Origin: Lachnospiraceae bacterium | GTDB taxonomy: Bacteria; Bacillota; Clostridia; Lachnospirales; Lachnospiraceae | Length of the DNA: 42,154 bases | Direction of reading: 5' to 3' | NCBI GenBank assembly: GCA_016291405.1 | Contig: JAEEXG010000018.1 | Span: 1-42,154, forward strand | Part shown: positions 6,899 to 37,115 of the stretch, one piece after another | Numbering within the stretch: the stretch's first letter is position 1 | Layout: every line of letters starts with the position of its first letter | Notes under the pieces: generated by a model | The model's input: only the letters and a program-made list of their open reading frames with translations | Database searches by the model: none | Told to the model about the DNA's origin: nothing | Position numbers and translations under genes: made by a program

Positions 6899-6985
6899 GG
6901 AGTCGTATCGAAGCGGTCATAACGGGGCGCACTCGAAATGCGTTTGCCCTTTTTGGGCACGAGGGTTCGAATCCCTCCGACTCCG
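6899..6985 (+). tRNA. tRNA-Ser, anticodon CGA
   Basis: Acceptor stem GGAGTCG/CGACTCC, with a D-arm of three pairs. The anticodon arm is GCGCA-CTCGAAA-TGCGT, so the anticodon is CGA and reads UCG. The long variable arm TTGCCC-TTTTT-GGGCA marks class II tRNAs. The T-arm is GAGGG-TTCGAAT-CCCTC and the discriminator base is G, as expected for Ser. CCA is not encoded. It stands alone with its own promoter and terminator and diverges from dnaX. Confidence 0.95.
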
Positions 6986-30791: not shown

Positions 30792-30819
30792 AAAAGCCGA
30801 AGAGAATTCTTCGGCTTTT
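30792..30819. terminator. Two-way terminator between DUF1189-like gene and GNAT operon
   Basis: A 12-bp stem AAAAGCCGAAGA (30792-30803) with 30808-30819 and a GAAT loop, with A and T runs on either side. It also ends the acetyltransferase operon coming from the right. Confidence 0.9.
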
Positions 30820-30822
30820 TTA

Positions 30823-31374
30823 TTATAGTTCTTTTAACATGATGTACTCGTCTAGAAACGTACCATCTTTTAAGCGAACCGCTCTCGGACGCATGCCAAC
30901 TATCTTAAATCCAATCTTTTCATAAAGTGCTCTGGCTCTTGAGTTTCCTTCAAGGAATTCAAGTTCCAGCTGAACTATATTCGGATTGCTCTTTGCAATC
31001 TTTATCATTTCCTCAAAGAACTTGGTTCCGATTCCCAAGTTCCAGTATTCTTTAAGTAATCCAATTGCTATCCTGGCTTCATGGCCTATCTTTATGCCTT
31101 TTCTCCAACTTACCATGCATGTGCCAACAATCACTCCGTCTACTTCACAAAGAAGCATCGTTTCACAATCGGATTTTTCCCATCCTTCGATGAGTTCTCT
31201 TTCTTTTTCAATGGGAAGATTTTTCCACTCTTCCGGATATCTTAAAAGAAAATCGGTCTCGCCCGCAGATTTAATTAAATACGCAAGAGTTCCTTCAGCA
31301 TCCTCTACTCTGGGCGATCTTATAATCGCATCCCTTGAATCTTTTAGTTTAAAATGCATATCTTCTATTTTCAT
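30823..31374 (-). CDS. GNAT acetyltransferase, downstream tandem copy
   Basis: 183 aa. GNAT fold with the acetyl-CoA loop region LLKEYWNLGIGTKFFEEMI (about 106-124) and the closing NSRARALYEKIGFKIVG. It is 137/183 identical (75 percent) to the next gene upstream, with no gaps, and even the ribosome site context (GGAGG-N7-ATG) is shared. The pair is therefore a recent tandem duplication. The substrate is unknown; small-molecule or ribosomal-protein acetylation are both possible. It is the last gene of the operon that starts at the attenuator near 33627. Confidence 0.88.
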   Translation of the reverse strand: MKIEDMHFKLKDSRDAIIRSPRVEDAEGTLAYLIKSAGETDFLLRYPEEWKNLPIEKERELIEGWEKSDCETMLLCEVDGVIVGTCMVSWRKGIKIGHEARIAIGLLKEYWNLGIGTKFFEEMIKIAKSNPNIVQLELEFLEGNSRARALYEKIGFKIVGMRPRAVRLKDGTFLDEYIMLKEL

Positions 31375-31410: not shown

Positions 31411-31962
31411 CTAAAACTCTTTTATCATCAAGTACTCATTTAAGAACTTACCGCTTTTTAAACGAATAGCATTTAAAGCAACTCCTGTTATCCTAAATCC
31501 CATTTTTTCATATAAAGCTCTTGCCCTAGAATTTCCTTCCATAAACTCTAGTTCCATTTGAGTTATTCTAGGATTGCTCTTAGCAATCTTAATCATTTCC
31601 TCAAAGAACTTAGTTCCTATTCCGAGATTCCAGTAGTCTTTAAGCAACCCGATTGCAACTCTCGCTCTATGCCCGGTTTTAATATTATTACTCCAAGTTA
31701 CCATTGAAGTTCCAACTACTACACCGTCAACTTCACAAAGAAGCATTGTTTCACAATCTGACTTCTCCCACGATTCAAACAATTCCCTCTCTCCTTCAGG
31801 CGTAAACTTTGCACATTCCTCCGGATATCTTAAAAGGAATTCGGTTTCTCCTGAGGACTTTACCAAATAATCAAGGGTGCCCTGAACATCCTCTTCCCTC
31901 GGCGATCTTATGATCGCATCCCTTGAATCTTTTAGTTTAAAATGCATATCATCTACTTTCAT
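31411..31962 (-). CDS. GNAT acetyltransferase, upstream tandem copy
   Basis: 183 aa, a paralogue of the gene ending at 30823. The first 20 residues and the core WNLGIGTKFFEEMIKIAKSN are almost unchanged. Differences cluster at 51-56, 91-100 and 161-174, the loops likely to contact the acceptor substrate, so the copies may have diverged in substrate. GGGAGGG precedes the ATG. It lies 12 nt after the kinase-like/GNAT fusion and 36 nt before its copy. Confidence 0.88.
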   Translation of the reverse strand: MKVDDMHFKLKDSRDAIIRSPREEDVQGTLDYLVKSSGETEFLLRYPEECAKFTPEGERELFESWEKSDCETMLLCEVDGVVVGTSMVTWSNNIKTGHRARVAIGLLKDYWNLGIGTKFFEEMIKIAKSNPRITQMELEFMEGNSRARALYEKMGFRITGVALNAIRLKSGKFLNEYLMIKEF

Positions 31963-33030: not shown

Positions 33031-33606
33031 CTATCTTCCCTCTTTTTTTAATTCTTTATCAATATCAATCCAGTATCTTTCAAGGTTTTCATTGTCAGGT
33101 TCAAAATAAACCGTCGCATCATACACTCCGCCGTTTTTAAGAATTGTCCTTCTGCTTCCTTCGTTTGTGTCGACGCAACACACCATTACGTTGTCTACTC
33201 CGATGCTTTTATAAAAAGGCAATGAGTTGTGAAGCATCCATGATGCGTATCCCTTTCTTCTTTCCGAAGGCCTTACTGAATATCCGATGTGACCTGCGTA
33301 CTTTTCCAGAAATTCATTGAAATAATGCCTTGCCTGGAGCATTCCCACAAGCTTATTGTCGCTCTTTCTTACACAAAGAAACTGTGTTGCAACAACCATC
33401 TTTTCAGGAAGGGTATCTTTGCTTAAATAGCTTTGCGCTATTTTATAATACTCTTCCTCACTTTCCGCCCTTCTTAAAGGTCCCGTACCATCCATTGAAT
33501 CGCCGTTTTCGAGGAATTCTTTCTTGTATTCCCAGATTTGCGACAAATACTCGGGGGAAAGCTTAATTAACATCAAGTCTTCATTTTCCCAAAAATCCTT
33601 TTTCAT
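33031..33606 (-). CDS. GNAT acetyltransferase, first gene of the operon
   Basis: 191 aa. GNAT fold with GHIGYSVRPSERRKGYASWM (about 105-124), CVDTNEGSRRTILKNGG and a YWIDID end, resembling the C-terminal half of the ASCH/GNAT protein at 35085. The ATG at 33606 has AAGGAG 7 nt before it and lies only 20 nt after the U-tract of a terminator-like hairpin. No promoter fits between them, so expression should depend on read-through. Confidence 0.88.
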   Translation of the reverse strand: MKKDFWENEDLMLIKLSPEYLSQIWEYKKEFLENGDSMDGTGPLRRAESEEEYYKIAQSYLSKDTLPEKMVVATQFLCVRKSDNKLVGMLQARHYFNEFLEKYAGHIGYSVRPSERRKGYASWMLHNSLPFYKSIGVDNVMVCCVDTNEGSRRTILKNGGVYDATVYFEPDNENLERYWIDIDKELKKEGR

Positions 33607-33626
33607 ACCTTTTCTCCTTTATGATT

Positions 33627-33658
33627 AAAAAAACCGCTTATCCAAAGAAGATAAGCGG
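33627..33658 (-). terminator. Terminator/attenuator before the acetyltransferase operon
   Basis: On the minus strand a 9-bp stem CCGCTTATC/GATAAGCGG (33634-33642 with 33650-33658), a loop of 7 and a run of seven T (33627-33633). The loop side (33643-33651) is complementary over 9 bases to RNA from the last codons of the preceding short ORF (33696-33704), a candidate antiterminator pairing. Confidence 0.8.
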
Positions 33659-33691
33659 CTTAAGTAGCTTTATTGTACTTTGCTTAGTCTT

Positions 33692-33802
33692 TTACTCTTC
33701 TTTGAGTCGAATATTTTTGTATGCGAAATTAAAACCATACACCTTAGAAAGCTGCACAGTTGTAAAAATCACATGCTGTTTTTCGACTTCAAAAAATCTC
33801 AT
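33692..33802 (-). CDS. Short leader ORF (36 aa) before the acetyltransferase operon
   Basis: 36 codons beginning MRFFEVEKQHVIF and ending IRLKEE. AAAGGA lies 8 nt before the ATG. A consensus promoter lies 26 nt upstream of the expected start, and a terminator follows 33 nt after the stop. I recognise no family. Promoter, tiny ORF, hairpin and then an operon without its own promoter is the layout of a leader peptide controlling attenuation. It could instead be a stand-alone microprotein. Its codons for LKEE encode the RNA that can pair with the terminator loop. Confidence 0.6.
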   Translation of the reverse strand: MRFFEVEKQHVIFTTVQLSKVYGFNFAYKNIRLKEE

Positions 33803-33834
33803 GAGTAAAATCCTTTCTCAAAAATATTGTTATT

Positions 33835-33863
33835 AAATTACTACGATTAAAATAATCTGTCAA
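33835..33863 (-). promoter_or_regulatory. Promoter of the short leader ORF and acetyltransferase operon
   Basis: TTGACA (33858-33863), 17 nt, TAATTT (33835-33840) on the minus strand. It starts about 27 nt after the MFS gene stop. Confidence 0.8.
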
Positions 33864-33889: not shown

Positions 33890-35080
33890 TCACACAGTTT
33901 TCTTTTTGCCTGCATTTCCGATAATGACAGTCATAACGATTAAAACCGCCGGGAATATAAGCCCCACTCCCATTCCGGCTCTTATGTTATCGCCCGCATT
34001 CTGAGCCACTCTTCCTACAATCGCAGGTCCGATGCTTCCCCCCAAATCTCCCGCCATTGCTAAAAGTGCAAACATAGCTGTTCCGCCCAAGGGAAACTTC
34101 TTAGAAGATATGCTTAATGTTCCGGGCCACATGATTCCTACAGAAAAACCACAAATAATACAACCTATAAGCCCAATAATCGGATTTCCTGATAAAGAAG
34201 CAAGAAGATATGCAACAACACACAAAGCTCCCGAGCCTATCATAAAGCCCGTTAGCTTAATCTTTTCTCCGTATTTACCGTATATCACTCTGCTTATTCC
34301 CATAGTGATTGCAAACATGCAAGGGCCGGCCAAATCTCCTGCCGATTTAGAAAGCTTAAGAGCTGCCTCTGCGTAAGCTGAAGCCCACTGCGCCATTGAT
34401 ATTTCCGACGCCCCTGCGCATATCATTAAAATAATTGCCACTATGAATAAAGGCGTCTTTATAAGCTTCCTTATTCCCATTCCCGTTCCTTCATCCACAA
34501 TGGGGACGATGGGGCATGTGGCAAAGTTATATATGTTTACTGCCGGCACAAGAGCCCATAAAACCGCAAGCCATTTCCAACTGTCCATTCCAAAAAGGGC
34601 AAAGAAAGCGGTAGAAATCAGTATTGTTCCTACAGAGCCCCAGCAATAAAAGGAATGAAGCAAGCTCATAGTGGCTTCTTTGTTTTCAAAGGGACACGCC
34701 TCAATTATGGGGCTGCACAGCACTTCGATAAGTCCACTACCTATTGCATAAATCACTACGCTTACTAAAATTCCCGCAAAGTGGTTTGTAAAAAGCTCCG
34801 GCAAAAACGCTAATCCCATTAGGCCTACCGCAGAACAGATTTCAGACACCACAATCGAAATCCTGTATCCGATTCTGTCCACAAATTTTGCGCAAAACAA
34901 ATCAACCAAAAGCTGCGTGAAAAAGAAGGTCGTGGAAATAAGAGCGATATTTCCAAGTGAAATGCTATAGTCATTATGAAATTTTAGAAACAAAAGCGGT
35001 GCAAAATTGGCCATTATGGCCTGTGTCACAAACCCAAGATAACAGGCTATTTTTGTTCTTCTAAAGTTTTCTTTTTTCAT
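33890..35080 (-). CDS. MFS transporter
   Basis: 396 aa with about 12 transmembrane helices. The RIGYR loop after helix 2 and the GISRVIYGKYGEKI loop between helices 8 and 9 are major-facilitator features. The second half has an FSVGIMWPGTLSISSKKFP stretch like sugar/proton symporters of the FucP-like group, but the substrate cannot be read from sequence. It is the third gene of the rsgA operon, 4 nt after the ASCH/GNAT gene. Confidence 0.85.
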   Translation of the reverse strand: MKKENFRRTKIACYLGFVTQAIMANFAPLLFLKFHNDYSISLGNIALISTTFFFTQLLVDLFCAKFVDRIGYRISIVVSEICSAVGLMGLAFLPELFTNHFAGILVSVVIYAIGSGLIEVLCSPIIEACPFENKEATMSLLHSFYCWGSVGTILISTAFFALFGMDSWKWLAVLWALVPAVNIYNFATCPIVPIVDEGTGMGIRKLIKTPLFIVAIILMICAGASEISMAQWASAYAEAALKLSKSAGDLAGPCMFAITMGISRVIYGKYGEKIKLTGFMIGSGALCVVAYLLASLSGNPIIGLIGCIICGFSVGIMWPGTLSISSKKFPLGGTAMFALLAMAGDLGGSIGPAIVGRVAQNAGDNIRAGMGVGLIFPAVLIVMTVIIGNAGKKKTV

Positions 35081-35084
35081 AGTA

Positions 35085-36107
35085 TTACTTTCCGGTTTCT
35101 TTTAAATCGATCTTATATCTTTCAAGCTCTATACCGTCGCTTTCCAAGAAAACAGTTTCAATATATTCTCCGCCGTTTGCAAGTATCACGCGTCTGCTTC
35201 CCTCATTTTGGGGCATACAGCTGACATTTATTGTATCAAATCCGAATGATAATAAATAGTCTTTTGCCTTTGCAAGCATTCTTGTTGCATACCCTTTTCT
35301 TCGCTCCGAAGGGCGTACCGAATATCCCACATGGCCTGTGTAATTCTTCATTCTTTCGGAAAGCACGTTGTGAACCTGCATACATCCGACCATCTTTCCA
35401 TCAGACTCTCTTATGCAAAGAATAACTGTGCCCCATGCTCCGTGAGCGTCGGCTTCTCTTGAAGGATTTGTCCAACCGATACAATAGTCTACATACTCTT
35501 TCATGTCGGGCATTCGCTTAAGTGAAAAGCAACCGTCAAAGCCTGAATTAGCATCAAGCATTTCCTGCCTGTATGCAGCTATTTCATCCGCATAATCCAT
35601 GGTTGCTTCGCAAAAAAGAAGCCTTTCTTCCTCCTTGGATTCTTTCTCTCCCGCCACATATTCAAGGGTGAACTTTTCGCATATAACTAAGGAATCTTCG
35701 GTAAAGGGAATTCCGCTTTCTTCTGAGCATTCAATAAAGAATTCCTCATGAACCTTTCTCCAATAAGCTAAAGAACGGTCACCTTCCCCTTCCGCATAAG
35801 CGTGAAAGGGAGGCACTTCCTTAAAGGGACGGATGTATACGTCATAATCTTTTATAACGCAGACCGCCTCGTCTTTACCGTTTAAAATAACGCTGTAATC
35901 TCCGGGCTTTGGTATTTCATCAAGGGCATCCTCGCTCACATAATCATCGTAAGCGCTGGCTGTTCCAAACTTGATTCCTTTAATCACAAGGTCTGATAAT
36001 TTATCCGCTGTTTGGGCATCGCTGCCAAATCCCCATGCTTCATAGGGCGTATTAATATCTACGTTTTTCTTTTTACAAAACTCTTCCCATAATTTTTCTG
36101 CATTCAT
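35085..36107 (-). CDS. Fusion of an ASCH domain and a GNAT acetyltransferase
   Basis: 340 aa from the ATG at 36107. AAGGAG lies 10 nt before it but only 1 nt before the alternative ATG at 36116. The N-terminal half (about 1-150) is ASCH-like: EAWGFGSDAQTADKLSDLV, GKFGTASA-type and VCVIKDYDVYIRPF elements of an RNA-binding, PUA-related fold. The C-terminal half (about 165-340) is a GNAT with GHVGYSVRPSERRKGYATRM and NEGSRRVILANGG. The combination suggests acetylation linked to RNA or a nucleotide, but this is inference. It lies between rsgA and the MFS gene in one operon. Confidence 0.8.
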   Translation of the reverse strand: MNAEKLWEEFCKKKNVDINTPYEAWGFGSDAQTADKLSDLVIKGIKFGTASAYDDYVSEDALDEIPKPGDYSVILNGKDEAVCVIKDYDVYIRPFKEVPPFHAYAEGEGDRSLAYWRKVHEEFFIECSEESGIPFTEDSLVICEKFTLEYVAGEKESKEEERLLFCEATMDYADEIAAYRQEMLDANSGFDGCFSLKRMPDMKEYVDYCIGWTNPSREADAHGAWGTVILCIRESDGKMVGCMQVHNVLSERMKNYTGHVGYSVRPSERRKGYATRMLAKAKDYLLSFGFDTINVSCMPQNEGSRRVILANGGEYIETVFLESDGIELERYKIDLKETGK

Positions 36108-36137
36108 ACTGTACATTCTCCTTTTTAGTAAAAAATT

Positions 36138-37115
36138 TTAGTCCCACGCACTTTTCCTGTTACTTTTCTTCATGGCTTTAGCCCACTTTGAAATCTCTTT
36201 TTTCTTTGCGTAGTTTTTGGTGTTTTCTTTTCCTAAATTTTTAAAAAGCTCATATCTTTCTTTAGATAATTCTCCGCTTTTTATGGCTGCTTTTATGGCG
36301 CATCCGGGCTCTGTCTCGTGCCTGCAGTTACTGAATTTGCACCTGCATTCAAGCTCTATGATGTCTGAAAATGTTTCATCAATTCCGGCTTGCACATTTG
36401 CCATTCCGATTTCACGCATACCGGGAGTATCAATGATACTTACGCCGTTTTTAAGTTTAATCAGCTTTCTGTGAGTGGTGGTGTGTCGGCCTTCGCCATC
36501 GTCTTCTCTGATTTCTGAAGTCTTCATGACTTCTTCACCGCAAAGGGCATTTATAAGCGTAGATTTTCCTGCGCCGGAAGACCCCATTAGGCATATGGTA
36601 GCGCCTTCCTTCATATATTCGCTAAGTTCTTCAAGACCTATACCTAAAAGCGCCGATATAGCATGCACGCGCACTTTCTCTGAGATAGTCTCTACCTCTC
36701 TTACGTATCTTCCCACATTGTTACAAAGATCCGATTTTGTGAGGACCACAACAGGTGTCGCACCGCCTTGCATGGCAACGCTTACATATCTTGCAATTCG
36801 ATTAAAGCTATAGTCTTCATTTAAAGATGTGACTATAAAGCAGTAATCCACATTTGCAACCATGTACTGCATTACTCCGGTTTTTGATTGATCCGGCCTT
36901 TGCAAAAAGCTCTTTCTTTCGCAAACCGAAAGAATCATAGACTCTCCCTGCGTATTTTTAATAAAATTCACATAGTCGCCTACAACAGGCAATTTGTCCG
37001 CATCAATCTCATAAAAGCTACCCTTCAACTTTGCAGGATATTCCTCTCCTTCAAAGCTTACGGTAAAACTGTTTTTTCTAACTTCCGTTATTCTTCCTAA
37101 ATTTGTAGTATTCAA
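36138..37115 (-). CDS. rsgA: Ribosome small-subunit-dependent GTPase RsgA
   Basis: 325 aa. It is a circularly permuted GTPase that checks late 30S subunit maturation. An OB fold (about 1-75) precedes the G domain in permuted order: TKSD (126-129), GSSGAGKST (178-186), then DTPG (229-232). A zinc site follows at Cys259, Cys264, His266, Cys272. The start is TTG at 37115, with AAGGAGA 7 nt before it and no nearer ATG. It is the first gene of rsgA-ASCH/GNAT-MFS. A terminator and a 21-codon ORF lie upstream. Confidence 0.94.
   Translation of the reverse strand: MNTTNLGRITEVRKNSFTVSFEGEEYPAKLKGSFYEIDADKLPVVGDYVNFIKNTQGESMILSVCERKSFLQRPDQSKTGVMQYMVANVDYCFIVTSLNEDYSFNRIARYVSVAMQGGATPVVVLTKSDLCNNVGRYVREVETISEKVRVHAISALLGIGLEELSEYMKEGATICLMGSSGAGKSTLINALCGEEVMKTSEIREDDGEGRHTTTHRKLIKLKNGVSIIDTPGMREIGMANVQAGIDETFSDIIELECRCKFSNCRHETEPGCAIKAAIKSGELSKERYELFKNLGKENTKNYAKKKEISKWAKAMKKSNRKSAWD

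Follow-up and report, generated by a model that had tools for sequence, protein, structure and literature searches.

A putative uORF-dependent transcription attenuator upstream of a kinase-acetyltransferase operon in Lachnospiraceae

We have identified, on the minus strand of a 42,154-nt contig of a Lachnospiraceae bacterium (JAEEXG010000018.1, assembly GCA_016291405.1; the whole stretch is hereafter called the window), a leader that is very probably a ribosome-mediated transcription attenuator of the bmrB/vmlR type, placed in front of a kinase-acetyltransferase module. Lachnospiraceae are common gut bacteria. Attenuators built on an upstream open reading frame (uORF) mark genes that are wanted only when ribosomes are in trouble, and can therefore point to unrecognised resistance functions; here, the leader points to a kinase-acetyltransferase fusion that is named by no curated family model used in this work.

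Leader layout

The candidate promoter TTGACA-N17-TAATTT (33835..33863; -35 box at 33863-33858, spacer of 17 nt, -10 box at 33840-33835) lies where the original prediction had placed it. Its -35 box is perfect and its -10 box is weak, with 3/6 positions matching the consensus; because our mechanical scan demanded at least 4/6 in the -10 box, the promoter is missing from its output. The uORF (33692..33802) encodes the 36-aa peptide MRFFEVEKQHVIFTTVQLSKVYGFNFAYKNIRLKEE and is preceded by its own Shine-Dalgarno (SD) sequence, GAGAAAGGA (33819-33811). Behind it, the scan detected an intrinsic terminator (33627..33661), also supported by covariation over ten leaders, with a stem of 13 pairs including five G-C (33661-33631), a 5-nt loop and a T run ending at 33627. 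The first operon gene, coding for a GNAT acetyltransferase, starts 20 nt further on, at 33606, and its SD sequence sits in a loop closed by a weak hairpin stem of 5 bp in the fold predicted for the window. The consensus promoter scan of the window lists no promoter in the 33627-33606 gap. The ORF of 36 codons with its ribosome site, the hairpin with its T run, the short distance to the gene and the lack of an intervening promoter had all been proposed from the sequence and were located as described.

Operon and its proteins

Four genes, separated by gaps of 0, 12 and 36 nt, follow on the same strand. They encode a GNAT acetyltransferase of 191 aa (P0002, 33031..33606; Pfam PF00583/PF13302), a P-loop kinase/GNAT fusion of 351 aa (P0003, 31975..33030), orthologues of which stand elsewhere directly behind the same kind of leader, and two further Pfam-recognised GNAT acetyltransferases of 183 aa each (31411..31962 and 30823..31374). 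A terminator-like hairpin found by the scan (30792..30819) closes the operon. It had been described as a set of four acetyltransferase genes, which is correct insofar as all four products carry a GNAT domain, but the second is a fusion with a P-loop kinase.

The N-terminal half of P0003 was modelled as a P-loop kinase (mean pLDDT 76, residues 119-155 with low confidence). The top Foldseek match of this domain model was the tunicamycin resistance protein of D. radiodurans (PDB 2vli, E 7e-8), and gluconate and shikimate kinases are also near in fold. With 17-19% identity and TM scores of 0.55-0.62 to these tunicamycin-resistance-like, gluconate-kinase-like and shikimate-kinase-like P-loop kinases, the modelled likeness to 2vli-type enzymes is a resemblance of fold and not a functional assignment. 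The C-terminal half is a GNAT domain that fits generic Pfam GNAT models; its nearest structures are 4e2a, PaiA, RimL, SpeG and MccE. No Pfam family scored above cut-off for the kinase half, and no NCBIfam model did so for P0003. Among the NCBIfam models of known aminoglycoside and streptothricin acetyltransferases, P0002 had no match and the matches listed for the other three operon proteins stayed below the curated cut-offs. No match to any of the four was found in a library of defence systems.

The neighbours upstream of the leader (33890-37115, minus strand) encode the ribosome biogenesis GTPase RsgA, an ASCH-GNAT fusion and an MFS transporter. In the ASCH fusion, the GNAT part shares 40% identity with P0002; counting the operon, the region comprises five GNAT domains. 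Elsewhere in the window, an Rfam match marks a tRNA gene (6899-6985, plus strand) with flanking genes on the opposite strand.

Alternative pairings in the window leader

The last codons of the ORF had been proposed to pair over nine bases with the terminator loop and one stem edge. This pairing was located and extended by a G-U pair: UCAAAGAAGA (33705-33696), the outer helix of the predicted antiterminator strand, is complementary through nine Watson-Crick pairs and one G-U pair to UCUUCUUUGG (33651-33642), i.e., the loop and the top of the stem of the terminator. Two elements were absent from the original prediction. A predicted inner helix, UAAGC (33682..33686) with GCUUA (33656-33652), invades the 5' arm of the terminator, the antiterminator duplex having an energy of -13.6 kcal/mol. 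Furthermore, the uORF start region (33783..33810), the predicted anti-antiterminator strand, pairs with the uORF end over about 20 bp (-19.5 kcal/mol), competing for the very strand that the antiterminator pairing uses.

At the window locus alone, the antiterminator pairing is only suggestive against shuffled sequences, since a Watson-Crick match of 9 nt to the terminator appeared in 9/500 shuffles, a match of the same length with G-U pairs allowed in 115/500, and a duplex as stable in 62/500. Pairing of uORF start to uORF end was as good in 11/500. The whole leader out-folded all of 200 shuffles (z -5.6), and the leader minus its terminator all of 500 (z -4.4). In equilibrium folding, the terminator was favoured at each of the 21 ribosome positions tested, which implies that any switch must act kinetically; in growing-chain folds, the antiterminator was the best structure only for transcripts that extend no more than a few nucleotides into the 3' arm.

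Recurrence of the leader before P0003 orthologues

A DNA search matched the terminator region of another genome (G006), where the same layout precedes an orthologue of P0003. Searches for P0003 orthologues gave matches in 8/18 genomes of the genus, 49/299 of the family, and 1/1 and 7/35 in two other genera, with thresholds that differed between these genome sets. Of 37 loci inspected in one set, 22 contained the gene start and 15 had no match to it. Among 15 assessable near-full-length orthologues from this and a second set, a uORF and terminator lie directly upstream in nine (L099, L100, L101, L106, L107, L108, L133, L135 and L137) and are absent in six (L097, L098, L105, L109, L110 and L134). 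Left out of these 15 were the gene of the window itself (L096), two loci whose match was incomplete or reached no more than 45% over the length (L102, L111), eight relatives of the N-terminal part only (L114-L118, L120, L128, L129), and two in which the gene start was off the contig or unmatched (L136, L138); the layout was seen in none of L102, L111 and the N-terminal-only relatives. A promoter could be assigned in eight of the nine leader-bearing orthologues (not in L107), with TTGTTT as the -35 box of L108. All 11 leaders compared have a uORF with a ribosome-binding site.

The leader is also present, 96% identical, in a sister genome (G012), whose contig is probably the near-identical record L008 (JAILCK010000130.1, a Lachnospiraceae metagenome-assembled genome); L008 is the only one of 19 loci with P0002 relatives (L005-L023) to show the layout. 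It is absent before the P0002 orthologue (79%) of genome G001.

An automatic screen for genes preceded by a promoter, an SD-led uORF and a terminator was run as a local control on 324 genes of the window, L162-L173 and L005-L023, that is, on material fetched around these loci. At least 180 nt of upstream sequence were available for 84 genes, 18 of which had a terminator and seven the full layout. All seven are known leaders, and four of the 11 known leaders in that material were missed; for three of these hits, the screen took a promoter string (window, L008) or a uORF frame (L168) other than the one named here.

Gene neighbourhoods vary among the leader-bearing loci. P0003 was placed in 10 of the 12 stretches compared (not in L162 and L164). 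GNAT or GNAT-like genes lie downstream in L165, L168, L169 and L170, those of L168 and L170 having been assigned by eye, and an ABC exporter pair follows in L166 (2795-6468), a company reminiscent of bmrCD. No such run of GNAT or exporter genes was found behind P0003 in the leaderless L171-L173. The gene company of leader-bearing P0003 resembles drug-response genes. In L168 (3938-7905), the genes in one run behind P0003 look by eye like an isochorismatase-like/GNAT fusion plus additional GNAT-like genes.

Structure across leaders

Ten leaders were aligned for covariation; L106, with its unalignable terminator, was excluded. In the terminator, 94.6% of the alignment cells are paired and 6/13 pairs have changed on both sides, and none of 500 shuffles was as high on either measure. 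The antiterminator of the window, taken as fixed columns, showed no covariation (61.7% paired vs 62.2% in shuffles), and its register varies between leaders. When 11 leaders were assessed one at a time, single-leader p values for the antiterminator ranged from 0.001 to 0.43 (window, 0.066) and combined by Fisher's method to 3.0e-5 over nine leaders and 9.4e-5 over six less related ones. For the anti-antiterminator duplex, single-leader values were 0.009-0.42. Pre-terminator folds have z scores from -1.1 in L107 to -5.6 in L108 (window, -3.8). In each of 11 such folds, the antiterminator strand finds its partner within nt -20 to +36 of the uORF.

The effect of ribosome position was modelled in ten leaders with the transcript ended at the terminator loop. 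With a ribosome at codons 3-20, predicted antiterminator formation was 0.45-0.88 in nine of the ten, the exception being L100 (0.19-0.33 at codons 11-17); with a ribosome at the stop codon, it fell to 0.06-0.34 in all ten. In free RNA, it ranged from 0.02 (L133) to 0.61 (L107), with 0.60 in L106; the last two leaders permit the antiterminator even with no ribosome bound, which speaks against the model. Compared with shuffles, a score for the three states gave single p values of 0.005-0.36 (window, 0.07; L107 and L137, about 0.35). With each cluster represented by one leader, the combined value was 2.8e-5 or 3.2e-3, depending on which of two sets of representatives was taken. As the leaders share ancestry, all combined p values are generous. 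Two mutually exclusive structures, for which folding had been suggested at the outset, are predicted as an antiterminator versus terminator logic in most relatives, but in the window itself the terminator is always favoured at equilibrium.

These comparisons bear on two other readings of the leader. It may be argued that 33627..33661 is the ordinary terminator of the upstream RsgA/ASCH-GNAT/MFS operon, that the ORF is there by chance and that the GNAT genes are transcribed by polymerases that read past this terminator. Between the leader and the MFS gene, which ends at 33890 in the same orientation, the scan reports no terminator, and transcripts coming from upstream would hence stop at 33627 as well; the poor -10 box of the window also fits this reading. 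It leaves unexplained a perfect -35 box, an SD sequence and an open frame between the MFS gene and the terminator, the recurrence of uORF and terminator in front of P0003 orthologues whose upstream neighbours are different, and alternative pairings that beat shuffles in the combined leaders, and we consider it unlikely. A ligand riboswitch or T-box with an incidental uORF would likewise show a structured leader and a terminator, and Rfam holds described families only. No Rfam family reached its gathering score for the window leader and nine related loci, the weak matches staying far below; moreover, the highest-ranking antiterminator strand and the uORF stop overlap in 7/9 distinct leaders, compared with 14-22% in shuffles, a tracking of the stop codon that leaves very little probability for a riboswitch.

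uORF peptides

The peptide itself is poorly conserved. It occurs in 2/18 genomes of the genus, its own and G012 (94% identical), and this restriction to one sister genome argues against a strictly peptide-specific sensor. Codon differences between related uORFs are mostly non-synonymous (12-15, with 3-4 synonymous, among L133, L135 and L137; 11 and 2 between L099 and L100), and since the sequences change fast in this manner, codon conservation gives no proof of translation. The dimensions vary less: uORFs have 27-39 codons, the terminator lies 25-47 nt behind them, and the distance from the -35 box to the uORF is 58-67 nt in those 10 of 11 leaders that have an assigned promoter. Because peptides diverge while lengths and distances stay, the comparison fits a sensor that would read the position of the ribosome more than a fixed peptide. 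As to the conservation of the ORF and of the complementary segments, on which the original prediction made its reading depend, the layout recurs before P0003 orthologues and the terminator covaries, but the peptide is confined to two genomes of the genus and the fixed antiterminator columns do not covary.

Searches for homologues of the peptide in 397 family genomes returned, beyond its own genome, four weak matches in longer frames (69-148 aa) that are chance-like and were rejected. A model built from the peptides of three related uORFs yielded 23 weak matches in the 397 genomes, none of which combined promoter, uORF, terminator and gene. Weak matches to related uORF peptides in L142, L152 and L155 have a similar T-x-x-Y-G core and may be further leaders or chance. 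The window peptide had no plasmid or phage match, a related uORF peptide no match in plasmids, and the L137 leader no match in either. A second terminator match in the genome of the window (contig C99, L052) was discarded, being by eye the ordinary end of another gene. In L133, L135 and L137, the uORF stop and another start codon overlap (ATGA); the latter opens a short basic frame, MRKKR..., possibly a second, coupled uORF.

Residues 32-34 of the uORF (R-L-K) form a +x+ motif, a type linked to macrolide arrest. This is unlikely to be the inducing site, as a ribosome stalled there would cover the antiterminator strand. A published account mentions Arg-Leu-Arg as a motif of resistance leader peptides (PMC8632094).

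An amino-acid-starvation attenuator of the trp/his type, reading a charged tRNA, perhaps that of tyrosine, would use the same three-strand logic, and tyrosine makes up 12% of the uORF residues in nine leaders (34/282). Tyrosine codons, however, reach 9% in one other frame (25/273), no run of one codon is common to the leaders, and the downstream genes identified are not those of amino-acid biosynthesis; we regard such an attenuator as quite improbable. It is hardly credible that the uORF instead encodes a small functional protein, or is what remains of the 3' end of an ImmA/IrrE-type peptidase gene, with its own terminator. That idea arose because the peptide weakly matched the C-terminal end of an ImmA/IrrE-like protein (L024), for which a 23-column profile score was equalled by 164/100,000 shuffles. 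The match had been picked out of 397 genomes and loses significance once this selection is allowed for; the full profile HMM scored 3.8 bits at a different place in the protein, a score equalled by 49/4762 scored shuffles, and the peptides of other leaders differ while the layout is kept. An origin from the ImmA/IrrE C-terminus was dropped after these profile and shuffle tests.

Proposed mechanism

Sequence and its comparison establish the layout, its repeated occurrence in front of P0003 orthologues and the covariation of the terminator, and show that alternative pairings are possible; uORF translation and kinetic switching are what we infer from them. RNA polymerase would start at the promoter at 33863-33835 and a ribosome would load on the uORF. 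During free translation, the ribosome would reach the stop codon and cover the antiterminator strand, so that the terminator would fold and the operon stay silent. With no ribosome on the RNA, the uORF start region would pair with the antiterminator strand, again leaving the terminator to form and the operon off. If the ribosome stalled or slowed early in the uORF, its footprint would remove the anti-antiterminator strand, and the freed uORF end could pair with the emerging terminator loop and 5' arm; the resulting read-through would transcribe the GNAT, kinase-GNAT, GNAT and GNAT genes in this order. The attenuator reading that had been put forward gains partial support from the recurrent layout, the covarying terminator and the three-strand logic predicted for most relatives; the lack of column-wise covariation in the antiterminator, the mostly weak single-leader statistics, the poor -10 box of the window and the orthologues that have no leader count against it.

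The signal may be translation stress, or a ribosome-targeting compound that the kinase and GNAT enzymes would detoxify; for any specific named inducer, our confidence is much lower than that for the attenuator as such. Tentatively, the system could represent an uncharacterised form of inducible self-protection, in which the kinase-GNAT fusion and its accessory GNATs phosphorylate and acetylate a ribosome-targeting natural product, while the uORFs sense any early block of translation by the position of the ribosome and not by the sequence of the peptide. If true, such position sensing would explain why peptides differ under a constant three-strand architecture, and leaders that combine one architecture with diverse peptides form a natural series in which to ask whether peptide or ribosome position is sensed.

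Comparison with known systems

In bmrB-bmrCD and in vmlR, ribosomes that antibiotics have stalled on a uORF permit antitermination. The bmrB leader of the Bacillus subtilis multidrug ABC transporter genes bmrCD is among the closest known systems: drug induction has been shown and translation of the uORF is needed (PMC4191407). It shares with the window leader a uORF of tens of codons, a predicted terminator, antiterminator and anti-antiterminator, and an antiterminator that is less stable than the terminator (PMC4191407); an ABC exporter pair behind P0003 in one related locus (L166) adds to the likeness. Differences are also evident. The bmrB terminator is inside the uORF coding region, whereas that of the window lies about 30 nt behind the uORF stop; bmrB, which is also AbrB-controlled, regulates an ABC transporter (PMC4191407), and the window leader precedes kinase/GNAT genes. 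The drug induction of bmrB is experimental, while the window leader is known from sequence and comparison.

The anti-antiterminator of the B. subtilis vmlR leader contains the uORF, and stalling on it lets the antiterminator form; natural variants of the uORF sequence keep function (PMC9226507). The same position of the uORF, and the same consequence of a stall, are proposed for the window leader. The vmlR uORF has three codons and precedes a gene for an ABC-F protein, in contrast to 36 codons and a kinase/GNAT operon here. An SD-sequestering hairpin and NusG-dependent pausing have been shown for vmlR; in the window, the SD sequence of the first gene lies in the loop of the weak predicted 5-bp hairpin. 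The toiL uORF of the Escherichia coli topAI-yjhQ-yjhP operon senses several classes of ribosome inhibitors, which cause stalls at different codons (PMC12121999); it acts on translation and Rho-dependent termination, unlike the window leader with its intrinsic terminator.

Our literature search, which covered titles and the beginnings of abstracts in a partial library, retrieved no report of such a leader before kinase-GNAT genes. The logic of attenuation is already known from bmrB-bmrCD and vmlR, and the kinase-GNAT operon is very probably a new instance of it.
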